From positions 90,824,571 through 90,888,570 of the forward strand of contig NC_134846.1 in assembly GCF_965363235.1 (NCBI RefSeq): a stretch of DNA of 64,000 bases, written 5' to 3'. Position 1 is the stretch's first letter, and every line of letters starts with the position of its first letter. The notes under the pieces were generated by a model that saw nothing but the letters and a program-made list of their open reading frames with translations, was not told the origin of the DNA and searched no databases. The position numbers were made by a program, and so were the translations under genes. The stretch comes from Mytilus galloprovincialis (Eukaryota; Mollusca; Bivalvia; Mytilida; Mytilidae). Shown piece by piece: positions 5,171 through 64,000 of this stretch.

Positions 5171-7050
5171 TTTTTCTCTTGATCTCTTAGTATTTTTGAA
5201 GCTCACCTTGGTACTCCCAATGATTGGGTCAAAAGTTAATCAAATTATTTAAAGTATGTCAATTGTATGAATATATGTATAAATTTTCAATTTAAAGCAG
5301 ATATATCAGTATAAATGTATATGTGTATTTGAGATTAAACACACAAATTTAGGAAAATTCAATATACACTCTTACCTAGAAAGATATTTTACTCTCGTTT
5401 GTTACATGTTTGTACAACACATCTTTAAGAGAATTATAGTCATGGGTATAATAATAGTGGGGATCATAATAATTGTATTTAATGGTTAATAATTTTTTGA
5501 AAAAGAATTCAAGGGCCCATGTGGGGTTTTTGTATATGTATGTCAATTTAGATAAGTATTCTACTAGTGCTTACTGTTTTGTTATATATAATTTGTTAAA
5601 CAAATTCTACCTGTTACAAACTCTCTGGTTTTAATCAAATTGATAGGCTTTGTATGATGTCATGTCTTTTTGTGATCTCATAAAGTGCAATTATTGTGAA
5701 AATCATCTCATATGTCTATTTTTATTAAAATATTAAAAATAATACATGTATCTTAATCTTTTCAATATTTATATTTGTCAATATAATATAAGATCATTCC
5801 ATAGTAGGAGTGATATTGGAAGGATTTAATTGTGTTTTTGTTGGTTTTCTGCAATTGGTCTTTATCATACTTTATTTTCAGATACAGCAGTTTACTTCAA
5901 AAAGTAGAACTTGAACTTTTCCCCCTTGTTTCCTCTTTCAAAATTAAAAAAAAAGTCCAAACATGTGCATTTCTTACTCAAGTTGAAATATTAAACAATT
6001 TATTTTTCACATGAGTAGTCATTTTTATTGATTATCTCCCTTGTCACAATAATTTATTATTACGGAAACATCACATTAGATTAGTTGATCACTTTATATC
6101 TTATTTTATAGAAAATGACCACTCTAAATTTTTATTTTCCATAGATCTTGACCTAAAAAGTAAATCAAGAAGGCCAAACAAGGAAAATCTACTATATAAT
6201 GTTTAAAGATGTTCTTTTAAGCTTGCTTAATATTCATAACACTGGAGACTGAATGTATCATATTTATAACCCTGCCCACTTTCTGGTACAGTCATCTTGT
6301 GAAGATATGATAGTCGATAAAACAAACATAAAACATTAAGACATATAGGTCTTCAACAAGACAATACAACATTAGATTTTTATAACTGTTGAAGAAAACA
6401 GAATACTTTTCTATAATTTTTCATCACAACTATAATATTCTATGTCATAGACCAGAAATGATTGTTTTAGAAATACAAATATTTAACTGATGAATAGTTT
6501 GAAGTAGATAAATTTTAAGACTTTGAAAACCAGATTTGTGTACGTCAAAGTATAAACAGATTTTTATATTCATATCAATACTAACAAAGACTTATCACAG
6601 ACCTGCCTTATACCTTCTTTCTCAAATGGTAAAATATAATATAACAAAAGGCAATCTCTCTGAGGGAATTCCAGAATCCACAGGCACATGAACATTTAGT
6701 GAGGTTAAACCAATATATTGTCTTCAACCAGATTCGTATAGTGACCCATTTTAAGCTGTGCTGTTTCGGACTTCATCAACAATATGTTCATGAAAAAGCC
6801 TGTTTAAAACTCCATTGACACGGTTACTGACATCTCAAAAAAAATTACAATAAACATTACTGTTGACGTTTCTGATGGTATGAAGGTTGCTTCATTGACA
6901 TAAGTTTTCCTTTGCTGGTGTTCTCAAAAGAAGTTGAATGCTTGTGATTTGAAGAGATAACACTTTCATTAACATACACAGTCATGTAGTGCCTGTAGGA
7001 TAATCAGTGAAAACCAACATAAAACACTTCACTGTGAAAAATTAACACAA
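5171..7050. other. AT-rich intergenic, nothing recognised
   Basis: No exon with supported splice sites, RNA gene or clear repeat structure was identified. Short open frames here have the composition expected by chance. Confidence 0.45.
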
Positions 7051-7079
7051 CGAGTGATTAATATTGAATTACCTTGTAT

Positions 7080-7690
7080 GAACTTTGGTATCAGAAAACA
7101 TGACCAGCCACTCAAGCACAAAAACCATAATAAAGATGATCAGTCTTCAGTACATGTCAGTTTGGTATATTTCATTGACCTCTTTTTTATGGTTTGTTGC
7201 TCAATGTTTATTTTTGTCCGTTTTTTTAATACGGTATGTAGCAATAGGTTAACTATATTTGATGTTTGGAAAGATTGTAAGATGTATATGTTTGTCTGGA
7301 AATTATCATCTGACCGTTACCTTATTTTCATGGGTCAATCTTAAGTTTATCTGGTTTGTTTGTTTCTTAGATACTACCCGGTATATGTAAAAGGTCAACT
7401 ATATTTAAAACATGTATTGATTGTAAGGTGTACACGTCTGTCTGGAAGCTTTCATCTGACATTTGCCCCCATTTCATGGTTCATTGATCAATGTTAAATT
7501 TTCCTAGTTTCTTTGATGTGAAGTAGGTCAACTATATTTAAAGCATATTTGGTGTATGGAATGATTGTAAGGTGTAGATGTATTTCCAGTTTGGTTTACC
7601 TGACCTTGACCTCATTTTCTTTGATCATGTTTAATTGATGTGAAAGTTGTAGTAAAGCTTTATTTTAAGGACTGTCCACATAATATCAAT
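7080..7690 (+). repeat. dispersed repeat (TGACCTTGACCTCATTTT family)
   Basis: The stretch has internal quasi-repeats of about 150 bp containing AGGTTAACTATATTTGATGT, GATTGTAAGATGTA, TGTCTGGAA and CATTTTCATGG. Related copies lie at 28840-29450 (mostly inverted) and 53150-53640. Non-coding and strongly diverged. Confidence 0.7.
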
Positions 7691-7878
7691 GGATCAATGG
7701 TTAGTAAAGAAGGCGAGACATTTCAGCGTGTTCACTCTTGTTTGAGATAAGAGTGATGAATATGTATTTGTTTAATCAAGATTGTGAAATAATTAAAGAA
7801 TCTACAAAAAGATAGAGGGTGTCATACAGATCCAAAAAGCTGCTCACATTTTCAACTTGGCAGATAAATATATACATA

Positions 7879-7969
7879 GATGACAAAATATGAAGTCATT
7901 CTGCTCAAAAGTACATGTACTAGTGAAATGTTCATACTTCTGAGCAGAATGACTTCATATTTTGTCATC
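7879..7969. repeat. perfect 29-bp inverted repeat (hairpin)
   Basis: Arms 7879-7907 and 7941-7969 are exact reverse complements around a 33-bp spacer, and the pairing extends inward with one mismatch. The centre of each arm reads GAAGTCATTCTGCTCA or its complement. This is probably a foldback remnant of a MITE. Confidence 0.9.
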
Positions 7970-7999
7970 AAATATTTTTAAAAAGTATCTGCAAACAGG

Positions 8000-8940
8000 A
8001 AGTAGGTGTCAGACAGATTCTTACAGGTTACAATACATCCTAGAAAGCTGTTGACCAAATATGAATTTATGGGCAGTACTTCCTGTGAAGAAGTGTCGAC
8101 AAAAATATTTGTTTGATGAAAAAATTGACAACCGCAGAACAAGGGGATTGCAATTAAGCATCATTATTAGAACGAAGGTAAATAAGTATATAGCTCCTCA
8201 CTCAACTGTTTCAGTTCTTGTTCATCCTGAATTTGGCTTTCAAATATTCGACTTCACTTTGAGCGTTCCTGATGAAGGTAAATCTAGAAAAGTGCTTTAT
8301 ACACGTGAAATTCATACCGTGTTGTTTTAATTTTTTTTCTACCAATCACAAATCTTAACAATACTTTGGATTTCTGTCGCCGTTGACAAGTTGCAGCTAT
8401 GTGAAAGTGCTTCACACAGTTAAAATGCTCACATGAAGCTCAATTTCACAATTTAGAAAGTTCCTGAGAAAAATGCAACAAAAAGTTCATAAATGTATAA
8501 AAATGGCTAAGTTTGTAAGAAAATAATTGATTATGAAAATGTATCACACAATATGACATGCTCACATGAAGCTAAATTTATTTTCAGGTAGCTCAGATTT
8601 GTATTACTGAAAAAAATGTCAGAAAGATTGTACCAGAGACAGACTATAGAAAACCAGAAACAAAGAACACCAATAAAAGCTTTATTCCTCTGCTTTTTGT
8701 AGGTTTTTTTAATGTGCAAATACCGAACATGTGTCATGGATGGATAACCCATATCCTTTCTTTTCTACATTCTATATATACCCCTCCATCAGTGCTTGAG
8801 CAACATTAATCATGTCCATATTGTCTGGAAAATTCTTAATAGATGTATGAAATCTTATATAAATTTTGGACAATCATGTCACCTTCTTCAACATTATTTA
8901 CATTTAGTTTAAAGACAACTCCAAAACAGTCCTTGATTCC
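8000..8940. other. intergenic, no gene recognised
   Basis: An 89-codon plus-strand open frame at 8061-8330 (sorting as NLWAVLPVKKC...) has no recognised family, no splice context and no homologous copy in the window, so I do not call it. A possible poly(A) signal for the minus-strand ATP5MF gene (TTTATT on +) lies at 8949-8954. Confidence 0.4.
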
Positions 8941-9097
8941 AAAATAGATTTATTATACACAGATACCCTGTCCATCAGCTGTATCTTTTAATCTGTATGA
9001 CTAAGAAATATGAACTCTTTATAACATTATCAGAATCTATTTAATAACACATTAATAAAGTTGTCTGATCACACATAAGTCTAATGTTTGTTCCTCC

Positions 9098-9126
9098 TTA
9101 ATGGTACTTGGAGTGTCTTTCATTGG
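9098..9126 (-). CDS. ATP5MF: ATP5MF exon 4 (last 9 residues and stop)
   Basis: Acceptor TTTCTTTCAG. Only 29 coding nt, encoding (S)NERHSKYH and TAA. The ending matches the KYH terminus of animal subunit f. Easily missed by gene finders because of its length. Confidence 0.9.
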
Positions 9127-12100
9127 CTGAAAGAAAGAAAAAATATGGTTAACACAATTTCTCTTGGTTGAATTATTTAGATATTTACAATCAATATACC
9201 TTGATATAAAATATGAAAATCATAAAAATAACTTTCAAAAACATTTTTTAGAAATTTTTGGAAATAAATTCTAGACACAAACAAATGTCAGTTAAAATGT
9301 GTAAATCTTTTTCTATAACTTTTACAATATTGGATGTTTTGATATCAGGATTTTGATTGCATTTCATGCAATCTTTACCAGGTTTACCCTAAAAATCTAT
9401 GAAGTACAAATGAATGTTTAGCTATGATAAAATAAGTCAGTTGTGTGAGTGCTACCATCTTGTCATTTTTTATGGTTTTTTTTGTGGACTATTAAGTTTG
9501 TAAAATGGGATCAAATTCAGATATATATCATGTATATTGCATCAAATTTCTCTTTTTTTAATTTCTATATGTAAGATTTTATATATAAGCTAAGAAATCA
9601 CATTATGCATGTTATGTGTTAATATACATACAATATTTAGGATACTGCATGATGTAGAAATAGGTCATTCCCACAGCTCCATATAACCAGATAAAATACA
9701 TTGAGGCTGCTGATGTCTTATATTTCTGCATAACAGTCCACATTCCTGTGAAAAAAAAATGAAATAATTATCTATAGTTATAGAACGTAGACAACTTAAT
9801 TACACTGATATTGCTAGCGATCGTCATTTCGTAATTTAAGAAACAGTTTTCACAATGACGAAAGTATTTCAAATCATTATAGATATTAATTTTATTGTGG
9901 GAAGTGGCTGCTCATAACGTCTGTTACGGATGGACCAATATGGCAGATGACTGTATCGATAAGATTTTATATTTCCTAAATACTTTTGATCAAAAGCATT
10001 GTTGGTAGAGAAAATTGGTAAATGTGTGTATAATATATATTACATGTAAAACACAAATGGGAATAGAATAACGAAATAATGATTTTATTTGTTTGACACA
10101 TTCCCCCGTTTACGTTTTCAATTTATGTACATGTATTGGAGTATATATTTCATTGATAAGTTTCTTGCAAAGTTCATGGATATCATAGGATGCATAGAAT
10201 GTTATCCTACATGTAAATGAACTGTTTTTATTTTTGTGATAAAGTCTGGAAATTTGATGTGTGTTACAGTTAAGTCAGGACCAAAATATTTTTGACTGCA
10301 GGATAAACGCGTTCTCAATAAACCAGATGTAGTATGATTGTTATTTGTATAAAGATTTGAACAATTACTGGTCACCCTACTTCCTTATAAAACTTATACT
10401 TACAGTAAGCTGGATAACAAAATGTGAAAAACATTGTAACTATTGAACGACCTTATTTATACCGAATCAAAAACTAAAACTGCATACAGCAACAACCACT
10501 AGACCTGGGCTAATTATATAAGGTTTTAATTTAACTTACTTCTACTTAGGACCATGGAGAATGGTCGCACACCCAACTGTCTACGACCAAACCACTTTGG
10601 TAGTTCACCTAATTTGCAGTCCCAGAAGGAAACATCAGCTAGAAAGTAAACAAGATTTTATATCATTTGAACAAATGTACATTTTTTTTTTTACATTACA
10701 CAATCATTTATTATCATGATTATATTCTTTCAAGGACTCATTCTAAATTTGGCTTCTTCTTCATAACCAGTAAAACAATAAATTAGTGACATCATAGGCC
10801 CTTTCACGGTTACTGCAGCCATGTCGCAAATGGGGCAGATTTTCATAATGGAGGCAAAAATGGTTTAACCATTTGAAAAATAATTAAATAATACATCACC
10901 AGGGTTGTAATAGGAAGATCTTCAACATGTTCATGAGAATTTATGGTAAAAAATGTTGCCAAATGACATTAAAAGCATTTTTTGTTGCATGACAATAAAA
11001 TGTTCCCTTTCGTTGAGTCGATAAAAAAATCTACTACCGGTAAATAAATAATGGTACATGTAACTATAACTATTTGAGACCTCTTACGAAGGATATTTTG
11101 ACAAATCATTGTAAAATTTTGCCCAATTTGTCCCTGTAACAGACCTGTTTACCCACCATGATGTGTATCAGTAGAATTGTCAGTAGTTTTGCAATGTTGT
11201 CAGTAAATTAATACTTGCAAAGCGGCACGAACCATCAAGAGGGGTTTGAGGGCATGCCCCCCCCCCCCCCCCCAAGAAAATTTTGAAAAATTAGATGCAA
11301 TTTCCTGCATTCTGACAGTATCTGCAGTTTATTCAGATATTTTTGCAACAAAGATTATAACCTAAAATTTGCATGATTTGACAAAAGTTGAGCTAAAGAT
11401 TGGAATAAGTCAATACACGCAAATCTGGTATTTCACTGCATGTGTACAAAAAATGTACTTATAAAGAAACAAAATATGTACGTTTAAAATTTCATTAATT
11501 ATTTAATCTTGTACAACACATACATGTACATTAAAAATACAGAACCTCAAAATAATAAACTCAATAGGAACTAGATTTCAATACTTATGACTAGAAATTT
11601 AATTGCCATTGAACAATGTTGAATGACTATAAATATTATCAAGTTACTTTCACATACAAAATTGCCAATAGTTAAGACTTCAACAAGGTACTATGTACAT
11701 TGTATTTAATTCACTGTGTCTTTCTTTTCTCTTCGTTGTAATCATTGATTTAATTGTATTCATTAATTTAATTGTATTCAAATAATTGTAATCATTTTGT
11801 AATTTAACTTGTGATTATTCTGCCTGTAATGGGCGTCTTTAATTGACAATAAAATATATTTGATTTGATTTGACTGTTCAGAGTTCGCAGGATCTTTGTT
11901 CAGTTCGTTTTTTTCTAACACAAGAAAAAACTTTTCACAATGTGTACTATTGTTGGGAATTTTCATAATTCCAAACTCTGGCATCCTGATTCATGCCGTC
12001 CATGATTTATACTTGATTGCTATCATTTTGCGGTTTAAAGAGCGGCTATTCCCAGTAAAAAAAGTGCCTTTTAACCCTTTCGCCGATGAGTCCCGGTTTA

Positions 12101-36864: not shown

Positions 36865-39800
36865 TACATCTACATCTACATTGTATGACAATCCATCAGC
36901 ACATCGATGACTATACAACGGCACATCGCAAACAGACACTTAATAAAATATAACAATTTATGAGTGCAATAATTCAAAAATAATTTTGTGCAAAAAAAAA
37001 TTAAAAAAAATTAACACATTTACATATTTACAAACAGGTTGGATATCTAAATATACTGACTCTGGATCAGTATTCTAAACTGATCCAGGGAGGATCAGTA
37101 TTCTAAACTGATCCAGGGAGTTGACACTGATGACATTCAATGGAAGTGAGTTTAACAGTACAACTGTGAATGGAAAAAAGCTGTACTTGAAGTAATCTGT
37201 TCTTGTGCTAAATGTTTGGTATTGTAATGAATTAGTGAATCTGGTGTTTTTGACTGGCTGTGGTAAAAGGTAAAGGTTTGGATATACTGCAATGAGATTG
37301 TGTAAGATTTTGTACAGCATAGTTACTCGATTGATGTTCTGCGAGTTTCAAGTGACTTCCATTGAAGATGGTCAATCATGGAAGTGACACTACTGATGTT
37401 GTGGTACCTGTTGACATGCTGCCCTTCTTTGTACTTTTTCAATGTTGTCTTTTTGTTTTTGGGTGTGAGGTGACCAAACTGAAGAGCAGTATTCTAAATT
37501 CGAACATACCATGGATTTGTATGCCAAACTTTTTGTTTCTTCCTGGTTTATTTTTAAATTTCTTTTAAGAAAGCCTATGATCTTATTTGCTTTTGCAGTA
37601 ACGTTGTTGATATGTGTATCCCAAGACATGTGAGAAGGGGTGATACCGAGATATTTTGCAGTGCTGACGGATTCTAAGATGTGGCCTTTTAATACATAGT
37701 CATGTTTGAATGGTGGCTGTGATCTTGTTACAGTGAGAGAGTTGCATTTTTCTGGATGGAATTGCATACCCCAAGTTTGTTCCCATTTGGCTAGGCAGTT
37801 TAGGTCATTTTGTAGTACTAGTAGGGTACAATCTTGGTGATTTGTTATGTTTCTGTATAAGATACAATCATCTGCAAACAAGCGTGTTTTTGATGTTACT
37901 GCTGCAGGTAGGTCATTAATGAAGATGAGAAAAAGTAGTGGACCCAAGACTGAGCCTTGGGACACTCTACTTACCACAGGCATTTGGCTATATACCTCTC
38001 CGTCAAGCGCAACCTGTTGCGTTCTGTTATTAAGGAAGGCTGATACCCAATTCCAGGTCAGGGCCGTAACTACCAATGAGGCAGGGGAGGCAACTGCCTC
38101 CCCTGAATTTTCTACACCAATTTTTTGTTTTTGAAGTAATAAAAGGGAAGTGACAATATGTACACGAAGAACTTGAATTTGTATTATGAACAACACATGT
38201 TTACAGTTTTAACAGTGTTATCATGATACGTGATATATATCTGTTATTTTCAGGATTTTTTTTATCGAAAGTGAACCATTTCAGTATTTGTTTTTTGGTG
38301 GTTTTTTTTTCGTGTGGCCATCCATCTGTTATTCAATATTTCCTATGTCGTACGAGAACGCATATGAAACTTTGTTATCGGCAATTTTGATTAAAAGTTA
38401 ACTAATCACATTTATTTACCATGTTTAGGGGCTCAATTAAGCAGAGGAAGTTCCCTTTGTATTGTCATGATTCAAAGCTTTATTTAGAGTCGATATTCAA
38501 TAAACTACATAAACACAAGCTCTAGTGAGCTTTTCAAATCGACTTTTGTGAATCTTTTATGATATCGGAAATTCGTTACCGGCTGAATCAGCTTTTGGAT
38601 AATTTTTTGAACATGTCTAGTCAGACAGTACGTCTCCCGATCGTACGAGAATATTATGGTCATTGACTCAATGCCTAAATTAGTAGTTAAACACTCCCAT
38701 TCGTTGTAGTTCTATATTCAGCTTTCAAACTATGATATTGAAATTCAAGGTCCTCGATAAAAAAAAATATTCTTGCGTTCTATTATCTTACTTGATATGG
38801 TTTTTTTTAACTTACCAGTTTGATTTCTAACAAAAATATCTTTAAATACAGATAATAATTGTTTGCAAAACAAATTGCTCCCGAGTTTCAAGCATTACTG
38901 ATGAGTTGTAAAGTAAGGAAATCGAAGGAAAACAGGTGTTTTTTTTCGCCATTTTATTGAGAGAAAAAAATCGGCGGTCACAATGTATTTAATGTTAATA
39001 ATTATAGTTAAAAGTACGACCCACAAGACGGAGCCTTGGCTCACCCCGAACAGCAATCTCAGTTTGTTTTTGCATAAAAATTGCTTCCAGGTTCAAGCAA
39101 TACTGACGAGTCTTAAAGTAACGAAATCGAAGGAAAACGGGTCATTTTAAGCCATTTTACTGATCGAAAAAAATCGGCGGGAGGCTGCACCCCAAAACCC
39201 CCTCTCTAGGGGCCTTAATCGGCGGTCCCAAACCCCTGCCTCACCTGAAATTGATCCCTAGTTAGGGCCCTGAAGAAAGATGTGTTAAAATGAAAGTGAG
39301 ATGTGGTGCAAATTCAGGTGTAAATTGTTAAAGAATACATGCTGGTATTTCATCTGGACCTGTAGCTTTAGACGGATCAAGATTTTTTAAGAGTTTTTCT
39401 ATGCCATTTGGTGTGTACATGTATTTCTGCAATAGATGGATAGTTGTCCGAAAGAGTTGGTATTTGTTCTTTATCATTTTCAGGTGTAAAAACAGAGTGG
39501 TATTGTTTATTGAGTATTTCAGCTTTTTGTTTTGTGTCATCTATCAGAATGCCCTCAGATCTTAATGGTGCAACTCCTGAACTGTCTTTTTTGGTGGACC
39601 TAATATAATTCCAATTTTTTTTTCTGTTTTTGAAAGGTTTGTAAGCTTTCGTCGTAACAAATGATAATTTCCAGATATGTTCAATAAGCTTTTCTTGTCT
39701 CTTTCTGAAGCAGTTTTTTTGTTTCCCTGTACTGTTTATTGATTTTATTGTGCGAGTCTGTTTTCATTTTTTTGAACAATTTGTTCCTTTTTCTAATCAG

Positions 39801-44976: not shown

Positions 44977-47900
44977 GTATGTTTAATGTCGTTTTCATAA
45001 AATTTTTGCATTTATGAAATGAGTCATATTTGTGAATTATTAATTTTTTAGCTTTTTTACACATGTTAGACTGTAGTCATTCATCCTGTTCATTGTCAAA
45101 TATTAGTGGGCTTGATCCCAGTTTATAAACATAGTTCAAAGTGGGTAACACGAATGACCGAATAACACTGATATTATCCGAATAACACTTGTAATGACCG
45201 AATAACACTTGAAATTTTAATATTAGCACATATTTGTGACTTTTAAACATTGATTATTAAATAATAATATACTATCAATGTATTTTATAACTTACAAATG
45301 CTTTGCAGAAAACAGACAAGTTCATAGAAAACTTTTTAAATTTAGTGTGTTTAGTGGAGGTAAAAATAGTGTGGAAAATTCGGGAACACATCATTTTACA
45401 GAGCAGTTGCTTAGAAACATGCTTAGGATTTCCCACGGCACACTTTCATACTATTTCCACCTCTTTCCTAAAAATCTGCCCCCTATCCAATATGGCCGAA
45501 CTAATCGTGAAGAGCCCTATTGGGGCACCTTCATGACGAACAATGGTAAAAATTCTTGTCAAACAACGTTAACAGTAATTTTAGGTGCATAACGATAAAA
45601 TATCAACTTGTTTTGGTGAATCACATTAACAAAATTATTTTAGGCCGAGCTGACAAATTATGATAAGAATATTTTGACAACGCACAGTAAAATTTTAAAC
45701 AATTTGTCGCTTACTATAGCCAAAAATGACTGTTTGACACCTGACGGTAAAGGGCATTCCTATCCTCATTCATGAGTCAACCAGCACAGATTTCCAAATA
45801 GAAATATAATATGGTGTATATATGTAATCAAGTAATCGTTGGTTTTATCTAACAATACTTGTGTACTCGCTCAGAAATATACCAACACGGAAACACAAAG
45901 TTACATACTTTACATTCTGTGGCTTGTTCTTTAATTCATTTGCAATTTTACTATACATAAACCATAAAAAAATAGATTGAACTGAGATCCTCTAGAAGAG
46001 GTAGAACTTATATATCTTGTTACTCATGATCATTGCAAGCAAAATCTGTAATAAATTGTATTCAGCAATATCATGAACAATATAAGATGACAAGAGATAA
46101 GATAATATATATTCCTGGTCATCCTTGATATCAATGACCAGTCAATCAAATCATGATGACCAATAAACTGTCACATGACTGTTAAACCTTTATTTAAATA
46201 AATGCATTTTGAATTGTACCTGTGATTCCAATACTAAACAAAATGTATGTGTGTATACATATATATTACAATTATCACATGATTTATCTTTTATTGTTAC
46301 AGTTAGCTCAAAGGACAGCTTCATCCAAAGCACAGAGGGTGTTTAAAGAATCAAACCATGTTGAAGAAGAGAGAATAAAACCAGATATGACCACTGTCCA
46401 TCAATCTATCCTTAATCAGGGATTATCGTTACATCATAAACATTCTAGCACACTCCTTCATCTAAATGAAAACTTACTCGATATCAATGGTGTACAGTTA
46501 CAGGATACTGTTAGAGATAATCCAAAATGGCTGACTCCAGAAAAACTTAAACTTATACAAAATGAATTGAAACGAGACAGAAAGGCAGAGAGCCCAGCAA
46601 GTAATATAGAATCACTTGTAGATTGGACGTGGCATGAACAGAAAGTTGATTATTCTAAACTCTTACACCATTATTTAATGTTATCAAAGATCAGATTAAC
46701 AGGTAATATAGAATCACTTGTAGTCCCTTTGTGACATATACAGTCATGATAGTGTATGAATGTTATTTTAAAATTATAAATATATTATAGAACTGTTTTA
46801 GCAATAGCCAAGTCCTTATTGATATGATTAGAACTGAACCATTTGTAAATTCAATTGGTTTGCATATTTGTTGTTAAATATACAATGATATAGACCCATA
46901 CAGTTTATATTATGGACCTTTAACTATATTAAAAGCTTATGTTTTTCGCATATATGTATCTTTTGTACTAATATTTTGTGAGAAAGTGTTTAGATAAATG
47001 TCTTGTTCATGTGTAATTATAGATTATTGTTGATCATCTCAACTTTCTTGCTTGAGCCAGTACGGCGAAAGCGAGAAAAGCAATCGAGTTGAGATGATCA
47101 ATGGTAATCTGTTTATCGCTATTTTGCCTATGACGATGTTGTCAATTTCATTAGCAACGCTACACGCCTCCTTAGTTTCTAGCGATAATTTTCCATCTCA
47201 AGCAAGTAAATGTAGCATGATATGAAAAATTATCACAAAAAAAATTTAAAGGAAAAATGCACAAAATAGCGATAATTCATTGTTTCCGGACTGGTTGTAT
47301 TAAAACAGATTGCTAGTTTTGTTCACGAGGAATGTGTTTTTTTCAGGACTGGTTGTATTTTAATATAGATCATGTGTATGTATTATTTATTTTAGGACTA
47401 GTTGTATTAACACAGATGGCAGGTTTTGCTATAGCACCAGGTGCATTTGACCTTTGGACTTTTATGTTTGCCACTGTGGGTACATCTCTTACCTCAGCTT
47501 CAGCAAATGCCACTAATCAGGTACAGTATATTATAGTCCTAGGCCTCAAGGGTTAACTTTTTTATGAGATTTTGTTCCTACAATCATATTTTAACCAAAC
47601 ATCCCTGTTGATCGACCACCAAATTACCAGTAAAACAGTTTCATTAATACTTTAGTTTTAAGCAGTTGTGTTGGTGTATTTGTGTGAAGGATTTTAATTA
47701 TTTAACTTTGAAGTGCTCAGATGTGTTGGTGTGTTGGTGTATTTGTGTGGTTAAGTGATTAGTACAATGGCCTTCTATAATTCTACTACTGTTATCACTA
47801 GCCATTCTTCACTGAGATTGCGAGTTTGAACCCCACTTGTGCAAGTGCACTCAACTTAACTCAAATCTTAATTGACTAGGATTGTCAGTTTTCCTATGAA

Positions 47901-50900
47901 TAACTATCAAAGGTTGTTGTTTTCTCTGGGCACTCAGGCTTCCTCCACTAATAACAACTGGCTGCCAAGAAATAGCCCAAATATGTGCTAAAAAGTGGCG
48001 TTCAAACACCAACAATCAACATAATATCATTACATGTATAGCAATTAATGATTTCAATTTTCATATTAAGGTCACAGATAATTATAGATTTTATTGTAAC
48101 AATGGAGTATTATTTATGTTTATATTGTAGTTTTTGGAAGTCCCATATGACTCGCAGATGAACAGAACAAAAAATCGAGTTATTGTAAGAGGATTTTTAA
48201 CGTGAGTTTAATTTTAAGAGTACAGGTTCACCATTTAACATCAACATACATGGTCCCCAGGGAAGTCCAATTTCTAAATGGAGTACCCACTAAAAAAGGT
48301 AAATTTGGAATTGTGCATACATTTTCACACATAAAAATGAGAATGGAAATGGAGAAATGGGGAATGTCAAAGAGACAACAACCCAACCATAGAGCAGACA
48401 ACAGCTGAAGGCCACCAATGGGTCTTCAATGCACAAGAAACTCCCACACCCAGAAGCGTCCTTCGGCTGGCCCCTAAACAAATATGTATACTAGTTCAGT
48501 GATAATGGTTGTCATACTTAACTCTGAATTATACACAAGAAACTAGAAATAAAAATCATACAAGACTAACAAAGGCCAGAGGCTCCTGACTTGGGACAGG
48601 CGCAAAAATGTGGCTGGGTTAAACATGTTTTTTGAAATCTCAACCCTCCCCCTAAACCTCTAGCAAAAAAACAAACGCTAAGTAAAACTCAGTTTAAGAG
48701 AAGTCTGAGGTCAGAAGAAGTAAAAAAAGAAAATAAACAAAATGTCAATAATACATATAACAACAGACTACTAGCAGTTACTGACATGCCAGCTCCAGAC
48801 CTCAATTAAACTGATTTAAAGATTATGTCTTCATCATATGAATATCAGGCACAATCCCTCCCCTTAGGGGTTTAGTATTATACCATCATAAAATATATGA
48901 AAAGAACATAACCTGTGTCATGCCAACAACTAGTTTTAAAATAAATGTGTTTAATTCCAATGCAAAGACCCTATAAGTGAATCAAAATTAAAGCCAACAT
49001 ATGCAATCCTTTAATGACCTGACAACAGTATCTTAACTATATCCTTTCTTAACAAGTCTGTTTAAAGGTTTTGTTAGCTTTTGAGGTGAATACTGACATT
49101 TTTGTGCTTCGTAAAAAAATATTACCATAAAAGATTGGATGTAATATACCTAAACGTATAAGATGATACACTTGACACCCACCCATAGTTTAAATTGTCT
49201 TCTGTTGGTCCAACGTATGTTTTAATGGAACAGCAAAAAATGTATGTTTTAAGGGAACAGCAGTAACCAAATATAACATTATTATTAGAGTTTAGATCTG
49301 TAGGCTTTTGTACAGCATTTATAAATGGTAATGATAAAAATGGGAGATCAATTATTCCAACTTCAGGAAAATCTGTTCACATATCTTTGTATCAGATAAA
49401 AGAATGCAAGCTTTTTTATATTGTGATACTCAACCAGTCGCATTATTCGAATTTTTAAAAACCTCGCAATAATTTTTGAATTTACAGTATCTAATAGAAG
49501 AGTGTACAAGTTTCATATTAAAGTTACATTTTTTTTACACATGAAGTTTTTTAATTATTTTCAGACCAACACATGCTTTGTCATTTGCTGCGGTTTGTGG
49601 AAGCATTGGAGTTGTGACATTATTTTTTGGAGCTAATCCTCTGACAGCCGGCCTTGGAGCCTTTAACTGGATCTTATACACGGTGGTTTACACTCCAATG
49701 AAAAGAATGAGTATAACCAACACATGGTTTGGGTCCATCGTAGGAGCTATACCCCCCATGATGGGTTGGGCTGCTGCCACAGGGGCACTGGAACCAGGTA
49801 ATATCAAAATCTTTATTGGGCCTTATAACATGTATAAGAATCTTTTTCTTCTATAACGGGTTGGACAAACAGTCCATGGGCTCTTGACTAGATTTCAAAT
49901 GTAGAGATATTTGTTTCTAGTTCAGTTGCTGCTAGAGACAGAATACAAGGAATCCACATGTTTAGTCATAAAAAGTTAGGCAGTTAAAAAAACAAATGTA
50001 CTAAACCTCAATTTGTATTAAAATTATCAGTGTCCATTTATACTGGCTAATTTCATGAACATTTTTGTGGAATAATTGACAGGTGACTATCATATTTCTT
50101 GCCTACTTCAGGCACATACAGTTAACCAAACTAATGAGTTGAACCAGGTTTTATGGCATGGTACTTAAAAGTTAAGAGATGACGTAAAAATTGCCAAAGA
50201 CAACTATACACCAAAGTTTAAAAGGATGAAGATATAAGCAACAATGGGTCTCTGTACAGCATTTCAGTTCTTATATAAATTGAATCTTTTATGCAATGGC
50301 TGAGTATTGTTACATTATTTTCAACCAAACAGACAAACCTCAGTATGAGTCTTTGTAAGAGCTCATGTATATTCATGTCTCTCCAGGCACTTTGTCTTCC
50401 ACCACTAATAAAACTGACTGCCATGAAATAGCCAATAGTTCCACTGTGGTGAAAGTGGCATTAGACTTCAATCAATAAATACACATAACATAATAAACTC
50501 ACACAAATGTATTGGTTGACCTTGATCAGAATATTGCTATATAAATGTATTGGTTGACCCTGATCAGTATATTGCTATATAAATGTATTGGTTGACCCTG
50601 ATCAGAATATTGCTATATAAATGTATTGGTTGACCCTGATCAGTATATTGCTATATAAATGTATTGGTTGACCCTGATCAGTATATTGCTATATAAATGT
50701 ATTGGTTGACCCTGATCAGTATATTGCTATATAAATGTATTGGTTGACCCTGATCAGTATATTGCTATATAAATGTATTGGTTGACCCTGATCAGTATAT
50801 GGCTATATAAATGTATTGGTTGACCCTGATCAGTATATGGCTATATAAATGTATTGGCTGACCCTGATCAGTATATGGCTATATAAATGTATTGGCTGAC

Positions 50901-51683
50901 CCTGATCAGTATATGGCTATATAAATGTATTGGTTGACCCTGATCAGTATATTGCTATATAAATGTATTAGCTGACCCTGATCAGTATATGGCTATATAA
51001 ATGTATTGGTTGACCCTGATCAGTATATTGCTATATAAATGTATGGTAAGTTGCATATGTTGAAGTGGTTATAGATATGAATTAAAAAGTTTATCAAATC
51101 AAGCATGTAAATTATCAAAAAGAAATGTGAAGTCAATTTTTGTAGATTTCAATGAAAGCTCTAGAAAAAAATCTTTCTGTCCAAATTTAACTTAAATACC
51201 AGTATATTATATTTTTCAGGAGCATGGTTACTAGGAGCTATATTATTTGCCTGGCAGTTTCCACATTTCAATGCATTAAGCTGGAATCTTCGTCCAGATT
51301 ATTCCCGAGGTGGTTACCGGATGATGTCCGTCATTAACCCTGACCTTTGTAAAAGGGTGGCGATGAGATATTCCTTTGGAATGATTGGACTATGTCTTTT
51401 AGCACCAGTTTTAGATATAACAACATGGACTTTTGCATTTGATTCCTTACCCCTGAATGGGTATTTCGCTTACCTCGGGTGGCGTTTCTATCGTGATGGT
51501 GACAGTAACTCTTCAAGGAAACTTTTTAGATTCAGTTTAATTCATATTCCAGTTCTGTTGATACTGATGATAATAAGTAAGAAGCATAAGGATGAATCAG
51601 AACCAAGCAGTGATATCAAACAATTAACAACAAAACTGACAGATTATATTAAAACAATTTCTAAATATACTAATAACTTATAG
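44851..51683 (+). CDS. COX10: protoheme IX farnesyltransferase, mitochondrial (6 exons)
   Basis: Complete gene; exons are 44851-44976, 46303-46702, 47396-47520, 48131-48201, 49565-49797 and 51220-51683. Total is 1419 nt, 472 aa (human 443). It converts heme B to heme O in the inner membrane, the first step of heme A synthesis for cytochrome c oxidase. Residues 1-60 are basic and hydroxylated with almost no acids, as in a mitochondrial presequence. UbiA-family hallmarks: [20 protein letters not shown] at the first helix; the Asp motif [18 protein letters not shown] (D224); the second motif [11 protein letters not shown]...[12 protein letters not shown] (H334, D345). Several further membrane helices follow. 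I start at 44851 because an in-frame TAG lies at 44806 and no earlier ATG exists. All junctions are GT-AG with matching phase. Possible poly(A) signal at 52879-52884. Confidence 0.96.
45290..45780 (+). repeat. dispersed repeat copy in COX10 intron 1
   Basis: 45530-45780 matches 4910-5170 (GCATAACGATAAAATATCAA, TTTGACACCTGACGGTAAAG). The preceding 45300-45530 contains a translated-looking segment (CCCACGGCACACTTTCATAC...) but belongs to the same non-coding repeat. Confidence 0.6.
46303..46702 (+). CDS. COX10: COX10 exon 2 (residues 43-176)
   Basis: Acceptor TTATTGTTACAG and donor AACAG|GTAATA. Encodes a soluble N-terminal region, then [17 protein letters not shown], the start of the catalytic domain. 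Confidence 0.95.
47019..47275 (+). repeat. dispersed repeat copy in COX10 intron 2 (see 3930-4180)
   Basis: Same ordered blocks as at 3930, with an additional GTACGGCGAAAGCGAGAAAA segment in the centre that makes CTTGCTTGAG and the inverse flanks more obvious. Confidence 0.8.
47396..47520 (+). CDS. COX10: COX10 exon 3 (residues 176-217)
   Basis: Acceptor TTATTTTAG and donor AATCAG|GTACAG. Encodes [20 protein letters not shown] and [18 protein letters not shown]. Two partial copies of its first 20-34 nt precede it in the intron. Confidence 0.95.
47740..48020 (+). mobile_element. tRNA-derived SINE in COX10 intron 3
   Basis: An A-box-like TGGTTAAGTGATTAG (47748) and B-box-like GCGAGTTTGAACCCC (47819-47833) form an internal pol III promoter. 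The tail has TCTCTGGGCACTCAGGCTTC, CTGGCTGCCAAGAAATAGCC and AAAGTGGCGTTCAAACACC, resembling the conserved 3' domain shared by bivalve SINEs. Same strand as COX10. Confidence 0.75.
48131..48201 (+). CDS. COX10: COX10 exon 4 (Asp-rich motif)
   Basis: Acceptor ATATTGTAG and donor TTAAC|GTGAGT. 71 nt, encoding [20 protein letters not shown] and the join to GFLT. Confidence 0.95.
48337..48720 (-). repeat. dispersed repeat in COX10 intron 4
   Basis: AAATGAGAATGGAAATGGAG, AGACAACAACCCAACCATAG, then GGCTCCTGACTTGGGACAGG and CTCAACCCTCCCCCTAAACC. It combines the 32728 and 14630 repeat text, showing both belong to one longer family. Confidence 0.75.
49565..49797 (+). CDS. COX10: COX10 exon 5 (residues 242-319)
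   Basis: Acceptor ATTATTTTCAG and donor CCAG|GTAATA. Encodes [40 protein letters not shown] and [12 protein letters not shown], all conserved COX10 text. Confidence 0.96.
50375..50480 (+). mobile_element. SINE 3' fragment in COX10 intron 5
   Basis: TCTCCAGGCACTTTGTCTTCC, AACTGACTGCCATGAAATAGCC and GAAAGTGGCATTAGACTTC match the tail of the 47740 SINE; the tRNA-like head is absent. Confidence 0.7.
50505..51045 (+). repeat. 38-bp minisatellite, about 14 copies, in COX10 intron 5
   Basis: Unit AAATGTATTGGTTGACCCTG followed by ATCAGTATATTGCTATAT. The variants (GCTGACC, ATATGG, TTGATCAGAAT) occur in blocks, a sign of ongoing unit exchange. It ends about 175 bp before the exon 6 acceptor. Confidence 0.97.
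51220..51683 (+). CDS. COX10: COX10 exon 6 (second motif, C-terminus)
   Basis: Acceptor ATTTTTCAG. Encodes [20 protein letters not shown] through to a hydrophilic tail and TAG at 51681-51683. Confidence 0.96.
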
Positions 51684-58367: not shown

Positions 58368-58744
58368 TCAGAAATACTCCCAGTTTTTAGCATACCAAGA
58401 CAGTATATGAGTATAATTTTTCATGGCGGAACGTTTAGGACTTTCATCTTCAAACACATTATCACTACTATCACTGTTAGTGTGCCGAGTATCATATCCA
58501 GATGCTTGTTTGACAATGTCACGGAAACCTGTTCCTATGGTGATGATACCAGGAACACTGTCTTCCTCTTCTGCATCGTGTAACGGTAGAATTATACGGA
58601 AATCTTCACTACCATGACAACGGAACACTGTATATGGTCCTACTTGTAGATTCTCAGCATCAGCTACAATTAGACATCCCCATGTTGTACCCATGTAAAG
58701 GTACTTATCTATGACCTTCATAGAGGTGATTTGGTAGTTTCTTG
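58368..58744 (-). CDS. propeller gene last exon (377 nt)
   Basis: Acceptor TTTTTTTTCAG. Encodes ARNYQITSMKVIDKYLYMGT through SWYAKNWEYF and TGA. Confidence 0.92.
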
Positions 58745-61700
58745 CTGAAAAAAAATAAAAGAAAATATTGAAAATAAAATCCAAGAAAGCATCAATCTGT
58801 AAAATTTAAGAAAATCATGAAAAACAGCAAAACATCTACCAATGGACATCCATCAAAACAAGCAGATTCCAAAATCATCTTTAGAAATAGGAACTAAAAG
58901 AAACTAGTCTTAAATATTGATATTTCTATTGGAGAAATGAACTACAGCTTGGAATGAGATAAATACCTTCATAAACATGAGTAGAGACATGACTAGCTTC
59001 AGAGTTAGGTACAACATGTGAATCGAACTTCCCGTCAATCATTAAAGTCTCTGCATTCCACTTGTATATAACAGTGCCTGAAATTAAATTAATGAAAACT
59101 ACTTATTCAAGTGTGCTGGCAGAGATAATCTCTATTAAATTATTCCACAACTTTACATGATGCAGATTGATTTAGAGGTTGAAATGTATGGACACTTGTC
59201 TAATGATTTACTTCTAGATTTGGTAATTTGTGGGTTTTTTTAGGTTATTTTATCACTGATGTGTACCCATCATTTCCTTCTATTGAAATACACATTCATC
59301 TTCCTCAAAACAATAACTTAAGTTATATTACACACATTGTATAGTGATGGTATATATGTTTGGTGATGACTTTATTGTCTCCACTAGAAAAAATCAAATT
59401 CACATGTTGAGAAGGAAAATCAGCTTTGAAAATTATCCTAGGCAGTTTTATGTCATGAAAATTGATAAATAATTAAAAATAAATGACACATTTTTTGCTA
59501 TTTGGGATTTTTTATGAACAGCTATTTTCTACAGATTGCGTGAAAAACATCTAAAGTTTTCCAGTAGAAGAGTTATAATTGTATACTACACAATAAAATC
59601 TGTTCATTACAAATATGTTTACCCAAATAAACCAATATACTAATTCCAAAAACATATAATTTTTTAATCATTTGCAACCTAGAATGAATTATATTATATT
59701 GTCTTGTTCCATACATTGCTTTCTTCAACAAAATTATAGGGTTCATATAAGTTTCATAACAAACAAAATACTTTGAAAAACAAACACTATTTTATGATTT
59801 ATATCACATACCTGGATAAATATAAGCCCATACAGAGTTATCTATCTTACTAGAGACTTCCAGGAACTGACATTGAATTGTGGGTATACCAACATTTGAT
59901 GTTTCTAGGTACTGTTCACTGTTAGTCTCCAAATCTATCACTAAGATCTTCCCATAAGATTGTCCTAACCATAAGCTGTTCCTGAAAAAAGGAAAAGAAA
60001 AAGTCAATACTTCCAAAAAATTTAAACAAAATGGTTGAGTCTTCCATGAAGAAGAAATGCTTGACCTGCAGTCTCCAAACAATTAGACAGAAACAGGTGA
60101 ATCAATGTTTTATTAACCCAAAAAATAACACAGACCACTTAAAATAGAAGTGGCACACAAATATATTTTGTATGTATACAACACTGTTTCTAATAACAAC
60201 CAGACCAGCTTTACATGACTGCAGAGGTCAAACCCTGAATGGTTGGGGCAAGTATTGACATAACATTCAAGCTGGATACAGCTCTGAATTTGGATTGTGA
60301 TTAAATAGTTGACACAGCATAGGTTTCTGACACGAAATGAATGTGGTCTCCTGAACTTAATATTTGTTTGCTTTAGAGCAATTCACAATGCTGTTGAATA
60401 TCAATCCTTTTTCTTTTTAATTTCTGAAATCTGAAATGAGAAAAATTGACCCCCCCCAAATTTTTTTTTAACCCCCCCCCCCCCTTTTCCCTTATTACAA
60501 AAATGATCTCAATTCAAATTTCTAATGGAGTTTGCAACAATAACTACTCATTTAAATACATCATAAAGTATTAAAATATAAAATGTCATACAGCCATGGT
60601 TAAAATTAATATCAATTAATAGTAACTTCTAGAAAAATAAATGGGGAATGTGTCCAAAGGGACACAGATGAAGCCCCCGCTAGTATATAACATTATAAAG
60701 GGACATAACTCAAGAACTGTAAAAGTGAAGCTGCTAAAAATTGAACTTGAGTTTAGAGGTAATAAGCATTATATACACATTTCATAAAATCTAGTTTAGA
60801 CAAACTTAAGTTAAGAAAACAGAAACGAAAAAATTCTTCAATTTTTCCACTTGTACAGGGGCATAACCCTATAATTATAATCAAACTGCTTGTAATCACT
60901 GAATGGGAAAGATTGCTTTAATTTATCAGTTGGTAGTAAAAGTGATATTGCATTGTATATTGTATATAGCATTGATTTAAGTTGATTCAAATATTATTCT
61001 GGACAAAGAAAAATAACTCCAATTTTCAAAGAAGATTTCATAAAGCATTGGTTTTAGGTGATTCAACAACCATTCTGGACAAAGAAAGATAAATCTTATT
61101 TATTGACTTGAAACTACAAAAAGGCTTGTTTTTGGCCACTTTTTGGCCCTTTATTCCTAGGCTGTTTGCCCCATAACTCTTAAAATATACCAACCTTTTA
61201 CTTATGGTATTAAACATTGTGGTACAATTTCAGAACAATTGAAATACTTATACACAACTTATTGTCCTGACACTAGATAAATGCTTGTTTTGGGCCCCTT
61301 TGGTCCCCTAATTCCTAAACCTTAGGGACCATAACCCCAAAAATCAATCCCAAACTTCGTTTTGTAGTTATAAACATTGTGTTTAAATTTTATAAATTTC
61401 TATTGATTTATACTAAAGTTATTATCCGGAAATATCCGTCTTTGGACGACGCTGACGATAACGACGCCGAAGCAGACGGCCCCGATGACGACATGATACC
61501 AATATACGACCCCCAAAAATTTTTGCAGTCATATAAAAATAAGTTACCAACAAATTTACTAATAAACTTGTTTTTATCAAACCCTTACCTCTAAACACCA
61601 ATAAAACGTAACAATCACAACTATACAGTAACTTTATTTACCCATGAAAAACAGCACAGAAACACCTTCCATTGACAGTAAGTTCTTTATGTTCTACCCC

Positions 61701-63464
61701 ATTTCCTGTCAGTAGACCTAGACTGTCCTTACTATCAGAGGTATGAATGGTGTTAGATATAGTATATACATCCAGGATGTCTGTGGCTTTCTTCCCTGTG
61801 TCACGCTTTACCACAATCTTCACATCAAACGTTAACTTCCTGTGACCTAATACCTGTATTCTGGTATCTGGTGGGGTCAGTCTAAAGTCCCACACACACT
61901 CGTAAGATGAAGTACTGCAATATAGAAAAGATATAATTAAATAACATACATAATATTAATGTATGAAGATAAACCATTAGATATATACTTGTATAGTACT
62001 TTAAGAATCTCTTCAAACCAATTTAATGATTTTAAGGATTTACTAAAACTTTACATTGGTTTTCAAATGATCAGATTATGGGATTGAGGTTATGTCCAGT
62101 TGACCCCTGTCAGATGCAGTAACAGTGACCAACAGATATTATCATTCTATTGTAGTAAAGACTAAGGAATGCTTTGATCTTGTTGTATGTTTTCTAACTC
62201 ATCATGAAAACTTTACAGCTAATAATAAGATGAAGAACAGCAACAAAAGAGCTGTCTATTGATATTTCTCCTAATTTCATCAGATTGTCGAATTAAGATG
62301 TTATTCTAACCCTGGATCATGGTATTGCATTCATCTAACCACCATTCCATCTAAAACACTACAGACACCCAATAGATTTTCAAGGTCCAATGAATTCAGA
62401 GCATGTTCTACCTGTTAAAACATGTAATGGGGACACACTTATAAGAGGTTTAAATCTGTACACCTACCTGTAAACACAGACAGAGCCTTGTTTATCTACA
62501 CACCACACATGTGTAGGAGATACACTAATTAAAGTTTATGTACACCTACCTATAAACACAGACAGAGCCTTGTTTATCTACACACCACACATGTGTAGGA
62601 GACACTAATTAAAGTGTATGTACACCTACCTGTAAACACAGACAGAGCCTTGTTTATCTACACACCACACATGTGTAGGAGACACACTAATTAAAGTTTA
62701 TGTACACCTACCTGTAAACACAGACAGAGCCTTGTTTATCTACACACCACATATGTGTAGGAGACACTAATTAAAGTGTATGTACACCTACCTGTAAACA
62801 CAGACAGAGCCTTGTTTATCTACACACCACACATGTGTAGGAGATACACTAATTAAAGTTTATGTACACCTACCTATAAACACAGACAGAGCCTTGTTTA
62901 TCTACACACCACACATGTGTAGGAGACACTAATTAAAGTGTATGTACACCTACCTGTAAACACAGACAGAGCCTTGTTTATCTACACACCACACATGTGT
63001 AGGAGACACACTAATTAAAGTTTATGTACACCTACCTGTAAACACAGACAGAGCCTTGTTTATCTACACACCACACATGTGTAGGAGACACACTAATTAA
63101 AGTTTATGTACACCTACCTGTAAACACAGACAGAGCCTTGTTTATCTACACACCACACATGTGTAGGTGATACACTAATTAAAGTTTATGTCCACCTACC
63201 TGTAAATACAGACAGAGCCTTGTTTATCTACACACCACACATGTGTAGGAGACACACTAATTAAAGTTTATGTACACCTACCTGTAAATACAGACAGAGC
63301 CTTGTTTATCTACACACCACACATGTGTAGGAGACACACTAATTAAAGTTTATGTACACCTACCTGTAAATACAGACAGAGCCTTGTTTATCTACACACC
63401 ACACATGTGTAGGAGACACACTAATTAAAGCTTCTATAGGATATCCTGGTTCATATTTGATTGT
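58368..63464 (-). CDS. C-terminal five exons of a WD40-type beta-propeller protein, DENND3-like?
   Basis: Exons in transcript order: 63364-63464, 61642-61914, 59812-59981, 58967-59077 and 58368-58744. 1032 nt, 343 residues to TGA at 58368-58370; the N-terminal part is beyond the window. The sequence has repeated propeller blades: LISVSPTHVWCVDKQGSVCI; FCAVFHGNSLWLGQSYGKIL; NSVWAYIYPGTVIYKWNAET; ITSMKVIDKYLYMGTTWGCL. It ends TVFRCHGSEDFRIILPL, GIITIGTGFRDIVKQASG, an acidic Ser-rich linker (NSDSSDNVFEDES) and the closing blade NYTHILSWYAKNWEY. I think a DENND3-like C-terminus is the best fit (Rab GEF with a C-terminal propeller). LRRK, ARHGEF10 and JIP3/4 propellers have a similar layout, and I cannot decide by eye. 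Phases agree across all junctions. Confidence 0.85.
58967..59077 (-). CDS. propeller gene exon (111 nt)
   Basis: Acceptor TTTAATTTCAG and donor GAAG|GTATTT. Encodes TVIYKWNAETLMIDGKFDSH through STHVYE. Confidence 0.88.
59812..59981 (-). CDS. propeller gene exon (170 nt)
   Basis: Acceptor CTTTTTTCAG and donor CCAG|GTATGT. Encodes NSLWLGQSYGKILVIDLETN through DNSVWAYIYP. Confidence 0.9.
60205..61545. mobile_element. dispersed element copy 3 (TTATACGACCGC family), in a propeller-gene intron
   Basis: Opens GCTTTACATGACTGCAGAGG and AACCCTGAATGGTTGGGGCA; closes TTTTTGCAGTCATATAA (inverse). Interior TTTGGCCACTTTTTGGCCC and CCCCAAAAATCAATCCCAAA match copies 1 and 2. The satellite seen in copy 1 is absent; a C-homopolymer lies at 60472-60483. 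Confidence 0.8.
61642..61914 (-). CDS. propeller gene exon (273 nt)
   Basis: Acceptor CTATATTGCAG and donor CATGG|GTAAAT. Encodes SSYECVWDFRLTPPDTRIQV through VNGRCFCAVFHG. Confidence 0.9.
62466..63436 (-). repeat. 12-copy, about 82-bp minisatellite derived from a coding exon
   Basis: On the minus strand each unit reads TTAATTAGTGTGTCTCCTAC, ACATGTGTGGTGTGTAGATA, AACAAGGCTCTGTCTGTGTT, TACAG, then GTAGGTGTACATAAAC. That is the 3' half of the propeller exon, its 5' splice site and about 16 nt of intron. Copies start at about 62466, 62546, 62627, 62709, 62789, 62871, 62952, 63034, 63116, 63198, 63279 and 63361. Only the last is preceded by the exon's 5' half and an acceptor. Confidence 0.95.
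63364..63464 (-). CDS. propeller gene exon (first in window)
   Basis: Acceptor TAATTTTGTAG and donor TTTACAG|GTAGGT. 33 codons plus 2 nt: TIKYEPGYPIEALISVSPTH and VWCVDKQGSVCIY. Its 3' part is the founding unit of the 12-copy array. Confidence 0.85.
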
Positions 63465-64000
63465 CTACAAAATTAAAACAAATATGTATCCTAAAATCAA
63501 TATTAGTTTCAACTTCTGTATTATCATTTGATTTCATTATGATGTAAAGTGTATTGTCCTTTTTCAAAAAATATATATACCATTCAATTAAAAAGAAAAC
63601 AAATTAATTGGTTTATACTTTTAGGTGTATAACACCGTCTCAGCCCTATAGGCTATTTTCTGGCAGCTTTTTTATTGTTACAGGAAATAGACAATGCCAA
63701 AAGAGAATAATTGACCCTTTGAGTTGAACACAGAAGCCATTGCGGCAGATAATTAGTGATTTGTCAGTGCCAAATACAGTTTTACTGGCCAATTGAATGC
63801 ATGCACTTTATAAGCTGTACTAGATGTAACATAGAAACTACCTGTATTTTTTTTTTATGTAACATGCACTTTTTTTAAGCATAAAACTTTTTTGTGTTTA
63901 AAATGTTATTGTAATATATGTATGTGTATACTTAAGAAAAGCTGAAATAGAAAAAAAAATAGATTAAAAGTCAATATGAAACAAGTAGATTCATGCTTTT
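63465..64000 (-). other. intron upstream of the first visible propeller exon
   Basis: AT-rich with no other exon recognised; runs off the right edge. Confidence 0.5.

Follow-up and report, generated by a model that had tools for sequence, protein, structure and literature searches.

A twelve-unit splice-donor minisatellite and further exon-intron boundary arrays in an LRRK1-like gene of Mytilus galloprovincialis

The donor array and its host gene

The DNA analyzed here (the window) is a 64,000-nucleotide stretch of the 1.385-Gb genome of Mytilus galloprovincialis (contig NC_134846.1, positions 90,824,571 to 90,888,570), the minus strand of which ends with the final exons of a gene. Exon A (63364..63464, 101 nt), which codes for TIKYEPGYPIEALISVSPTHVWCVDKQGSVCIY followed by AG, is preceded by the acceptor TATTTGTTTTAATTTTGTAG (63465..63484). 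The next exon, exon B (61642..61914), has the acceptor TATATTGCAG and a weak donor, TGG|GTAAAT, and exon C (58368..58740) is the last coding exon and contains the stop. A stronger exon C acceptor is present 4 nt upstream (58744), but it is out of frame with the exon B donor; the start at 58740 was chosen because it is in frame with exon B, and the join of exons B and C as used here is provisional.

In the next 78 kb, the same strand carries exons that Pfam identified as ankyrin, LRR, COR-B, and kinase, as well as a candidate Roc exon that has no Pfam match. LRRK1 was the top PDB-sequence match of the COR and kinase part (2.8e-34), followed by LRRK2, for a manually assembled query of open frames in which a few intronic residues may be included. 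Judging from these upstream exons, after which it was named, and from an annotation made by eye, the gene that contains the window array is an LRRK1-like kinase. Exons A to C, the putative propeller part, returned no Pfam or PDB match. All 14 genome matches of exons A to C (E up to 1) were located at this locus, with no second place beyond the array, and 139 matches to protein kinase exons were obtained in a family search of the genome. No copies were found in prokaryote contigs with the one exact pattern searched.

Tandem Repeats Finder reported an array at 62457-63430 on the minus strand, with a period of 82, 12.0 copies, 96% matches, and a score of 1808 in the one assembly used. Splitting the array at a fixed landmark gave 12 head-to-tail units and 11 unit spacings, eight of 82 bp and three of 80 bp. 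Unit 12 is incomplete and extends for 78 nt to 62457, where single-copy intron begins. Each unit consists of the last 67 nt of exon A (65 in three units), a NAG|GTAGGT donor, and, in every unit except the last, 15 nt of intron. The exonic part of unit 1 is exon A itself, which thus comprises 34 unique and 67 repeated nucleotides. The window contains a 22-nt unit core 12 times, compared with a mean of 0.00 over 100 shuffles. GTAGGT is retained in all 12 units, preceded by CAG in 10 and by TAG in 2, from donor 1 (63358..63363) through donors 2 to 11 (first bases at 63281, 63199, 63117, 63035, 62953, 62873, 62791, 62711, 62629, and 62549) to donor 12, the last of the array (62462..62467). These results bear out a preliminary description in which part of an exon and its donor had been amplified about 12 times into the following intron, placing up to 12 tandem donors there.

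Several of its finer points required adjustment. The intronic part of the unit, put at about 16 nt, is present and is 15 nt long. The 5' half of the exon and an acceptor had been assigned to the first copy alone; the 34 nt are unique to exon A, but an acceptor-like end is found in every unit. Near identity of the units, coding part included, agrees with the 96% matches, except that the units starting at 62938, 62776, and 62614 are 2 nt short in their coding part, which places the repeated coding sequence out of frame there. Nine of the 12 units carry GTT (Val), in frame in six of them, and ATT (Ile) is found in the real exon and in units 2 and 3.

Unit 2 is identical to unit 1, and unit 3 differs from both at one site. 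At the other end of the array, units 6 to 9 form a 324-bp block (62697..63020), and units 6 to 8 are identical to units 10 to 12 over 240 nt; at the 324-bp spacing, exact identity extends over at most 295 nt. This pattern fits a recent duplication or exchange of several units at once. Variable columns are about equally frequent in the exonic (6/67) and intronic (2/15) parts at low statistical power, and, with the same low power, the coding part of the copies gives no sign of being held by selection.

Joining exon A through donor 1 to exon B at 61914, and exon B to exon C at 58740, yields an open frame of 248 codons on translation. Donor 1 is the sole donor of the 12 in frame with 61914; the join to this position was as previously described, and the frame is kept through Tyr, AG|T, and Thr. 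Each of donors 2 to 12 instead gives 34 codons from the start of exon A and then a stop (AGG TAG), directly past the codon that spans the junction, as anticipated by the earlier suggestion that later donors would truncate the protein.

Further arrays at exon-intron boundaries of the gene

Tandem Repeats Finder delimited at least five additional tandem arrays containing a splice site elsewhere in this gene; two lie at donors and three at acceptors. The largest, a 57-bp unit in 79.1 copies (C9:90913891-90909384), extends across an LRR-exon donor, AGAGAG|GTAGGG. A second donor array (45 bp, 2.1 copies, C9:90905365-90905271) belongs to the same exon as an acceptor array of 50 bp in 2.0 copies (C9:90905547-90905448). 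The remaining acceptor arrays lie at a large ankyrin-LRR exon (82 bp, 2.7 copies, C9:90918131-90917912) and at a further exon (76 bp, 2.0 copies, C9:90903105-90902953).

In the donor arrays, the recognizable frame runs from the first donor; in the three acceptor arrays it runs from the last acceptor, and earlier acceptors, which share the same phase, lead to a stop. A single rule, use of the innermost site, therefore suits all six arrays. In the 57-bp array, a stop separates the first of the 79 NAG|GTAG sites from the second (7 of the 79 were translated) and would thus be included by every later donor. Not all extra copies are dead ends, however, as the second donor of the 45-bp array would add 15 codons in frame without a stop.

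Sequence inspection revealed short words at the ends of two of the units. TAGGG occurs on both sides of the 57-bp unit, in the exon and at the start of the intron, and two copies of TGGCA flank the 45-bp unit; shared words of this kind can, in principle, seed duplications. At the ends of the window's own array no clear shared word is seen, and microhomology therefore does not account for its initial duplication.

The number of boundary arrays was compared with that expected by chance. The gene has 13 distinct arrays with a period of at least 20, and 6 of them cross a junction, where random placement over about 38 kb (the estimated gene minus extra copies) predicts 0.93 to 1.47 for 44 to 70 junctions, a bracket that is itself an estimate from a gene annotated by eye. 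The probability of 6 or more is 0.0001 to 0.0014, or 0.0007 to 0.0055 for 5 of 12 when the window's own array is left out, in a test that is post hoc. By a second route, a density of 2.15 arrays per 10 kb, taken from the genome sample described below, and a unit of about 65 bp lead to an expectation of about 1.4% of junctions, compared with 6 in an estimated 44 to 70 here. Random neutral duplication predicts fewer boundary arrays than this; a mutational bias or a benefit may contribute.

No enrichment of donors was found in minisatellites of the wider genome: among 43 distinct arrays of period 20 or more in 20 sampled stretches of 10 kb each (200 kb), none had a unit donor score of 6 or higher, compared with means of 1.13 for shuffled units and 1.01 for randomly chosen segments. 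On this scale, the window array scores 7.3, the 57-bp array 6.2, and the 45-bp donor array 3.9; the threshold of 6 therefore overlooks some real boundary arrays. The sampled stretches are exon-poor by eye (60 best open frames), and the rate at real boundaries is not given by them.

Two features of repeats in these data are recorded here in their own right. Many units of the 57-bp array can be read as an LRR-like peptide, VGDLSSLKRLCLSKSSIRE, and a 47-bp array of 5.1 copies, with TATTTACAG repeated, is present just upstream of the acceptor of the LRR exon (C9:90914359-90914119).

Origin of the arrays and alternative readings

Overall, we consider it probable that the window array is a minisatellite of the type called mirages in amphioxus, generated by tandem duplication across an exon-intron boundary followed by unequal exchange, and that it is a nearly neutral passenger. 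As its present structure suggests, a short duplication would first have taken the last 67 nt of exon A, the donor, and about 15 nt of intron. Exchange would then have multiplied and homogenized the copies, a process consistent with the identities among units. From exon definition and the amphioxus cases, the spliceosome is expected to pair the acceptor of the exon with the nearest donor, so that the extra copies would leave as intron and the gene would stay functional. Use of a later donor, which on translation gives a stop after the junction codon, would probably be followed by decay of the mRNA. Taken together, these steps would make the array a nearly neutral passenger, and the five further arrays of like kind suggest that boundary duplications have been made or kept repeatedly in the LRRK1-like gene. 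Among the three roles originally proposed for the array, neutral slippage fits best. A buffer of spare donor sites is not supported, since donors 2 to 12 all truncate the frame and could not substitute for donor 1.

A different role could be read into the sequence around the donors. In every unit, TTTACAG or TTTATAG directly abuts GTAGGT, giving AG|GT in 12 of 12 units, and stepwise (recursive) removal of the intron through such sites would leave the mRNA the same. The array might accordingly serve as a ratchet, in which TTTACAG|GTAGGT acts as a zero-length exon, or recursive splice site, and the intron is removed by one or several units at a time. Ranked by acceptor plus donor score, the 12 unit sites occupy positions 1 to 10, 12, and 13 among the 217 minus-strand AG|GT sites of the window. 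All five scoring variants applied to the 429 AG|GT sites of both strands placed them within ranks 1 to 36, three of the variants within ranks 1 to 20 and those with a T-rich tract or a uniform background within ranks 8 to 36. Joining through the unit sites also leaves the coding sequence unchanged, although by construction. However, the score tables are not based on mussel introns. The unit acceptor varies with scoring and unit from about the 79th to the 99.7th percentile of AGs (three unit types scored); with the T-rich tract or uniform background it falls at the 79th to 93rd percentile of all AGs, below the gene's own acceptors. Other AGs are present upstream of the site within each unit, and exon ends in AG|GT are common in general.

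Drosophila ratchet points offer a direct comparison. They share with the 12 mussel units the juxtaposition of acceptor and donor, here as AG|GTAGGT, but in the available part of PMC8605326 they are found mainly in long introns, with two in one gene, and need a cryptic exon, whereas the mussel sites are putative and known from sequence. On this evidence, we regard operation of the array as a ratchet as unlikely. It is similarly improbable that two properties hold together, namely, that duplications spanning splice sites are made or kept several-fold above chance in this gene and that the AG|GT of the units permits stepwise removal of the intron with the same mRNA as the result, no matter which copies take part. 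If both were true, the array would be splicing-invariant, its copy number would be free to change with the protein unaffected, and mussel genes would have, in boundary minisatellites, a protected mode of repeat growth.

A poison-splice control, in which later donors are used in a regulated way to introduce a stop and so reduce the amount of protein, was also among the roles initially proposed, and we judge it to be very unlikely. The stop after 34 codons from each of donors 2 to 12, together with the stops that arise from the 57-bp donor array and, in the three acceptor arrays, from the outer acceptors, is what such a control would produce; intron sequence, however, often yields an early stop by chance. 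No extra constraint is visible in the donor or exonic columns, where variation is about as frequent as in the intronic part, at low power. The in-frame extension of 15 codons from the second donor of the 45-bp array further argues that truncation is not a property common to the six arrays.

A special RNA structure was considered as a candidate and rejected, as exon A with units 2 and 3 (296 nt) folds with a z of −0.46 and equal or better folding was obtained for 57 of 200 shuffles; a supporting sign for the poison-splice proposal is missing here too.

Inflation of a shorter array or plain duplication during assembly is very unlikely: one amphioxus mirage was apparently misassembled in a genome draft, according to a supplementary-file legend of PMC3087553, but the mussel array has a consistent variant pattern, with alternation of 82 and 80 in units 6 to 12, unit-specific substitutions, and defined ends, and the gene contains five other boundary arrays that differ in unit length.

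Comparison with known systems and other observations

Minisatellites at splice boundaries are a kind already known, if little studied, and the available parts of the literature contain related human, plant, and yeast cases. The closest parallel to the preferred reading, a mirage-type minisatellite, is provided by amphioxus, where minisatellite-like tandem duplications over a 5' or 3' exon-intron boundary are described, in the portions of PMC3087553 and PMC3902484 available, for Adh3, the globins BflGb6 and BflGb9, troponin C, and PGBD5. According to the same portions, many of the units carry AG/GT and evolve in concert, haplotypes differ in copy number, and splicing is reported to be undisturbed, the mirages in Adh and troponin C generating no aberrant mRNAs (PMC3902484). 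The mussel units likewise run head-to-tail across the boundary, and three donor and three acceptor arrays represent both boundary types within one gene; concerted evolution is apparent in the identity of units 1 and 2 and of units 6 to 8 with 10 to 12. Unlike the amphioxus cases, the host is a bivalve, and six arrays occur in one gene, one of them with 79 copies.

Three further systems resemble the mussel arrays in part. The human IFI6 (6-16, G1P3) minisatellite, described by Turri et al. 1995 and recounted in the available text of PMC4526556, also provides repeated splice donors, and two of its downstream repeat units are used as donors for different isoforms, whereas mussel donors 2 to 12 would produce no translatable isoforms. 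Intron gain when an AGGT segment is duplicated in tandem (Rogers 1989 and Hellsten 2011, as described in the part of PMC4974935 available), for which fission yeast cases appear in the accessible part of PMC3629103, has in common with the mussel gene that a duplicated AG|GT can give both donor and acceptor; the mussel duplication, in contrast, spans an existing donor and lengthens an old intron, with no new one required. Variable internal tandem repeats at exon-intron boundaries, as in the mussel gene, are reported from human segmental duplications in the available part of PMC2812944, where they were found between paralogs of recent origin and are associated with novel introns, but no second copy of mussel exons A to C was found.

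No molluscan report of such arrays was found among the matches listed, judged by title and the start of the abstract in a collection covering few subscription papers. More notable than the single array is the clustering of six in one LRRK1-like gene. Such a cluster in a mussel suggests that mirages are not a cephalochordate oddity, and the gene would offer a natural test bed both for the choice of the spliceosome among 12 or 79 near-identical donors and for how a tandem duplication turns into a new intron.

Other features of the window and its surroundings were noted separately. The first 419 positions hold a 63-bp array of 6.7 copies with donor-like AAAGTAAGT in plus-strand units, some of which are open in one frame. 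A reverse-transcriptase-like open frame on the minus strand (37390-38208), identified by eye, probably derives from a retroelement. A 38-bp array of 14.2 copies (50505-51044) is located in an apparent intron of a gene that we take to be COX10-like from translations of the open frames that contain its exons (46213-46734, 49545-49856, and 51165-51683). One of the 20 sampled stretches, L014, includes a 47-bp array of 99 copies at 5446-10000. Finally, in a neighboring gene, presumably chitinase-like to judge from its translation, a 21-bp array (C9:90957087-90956285) starts at an apparent exon donor and contains 26 exact occurrences of GGGTARGT.
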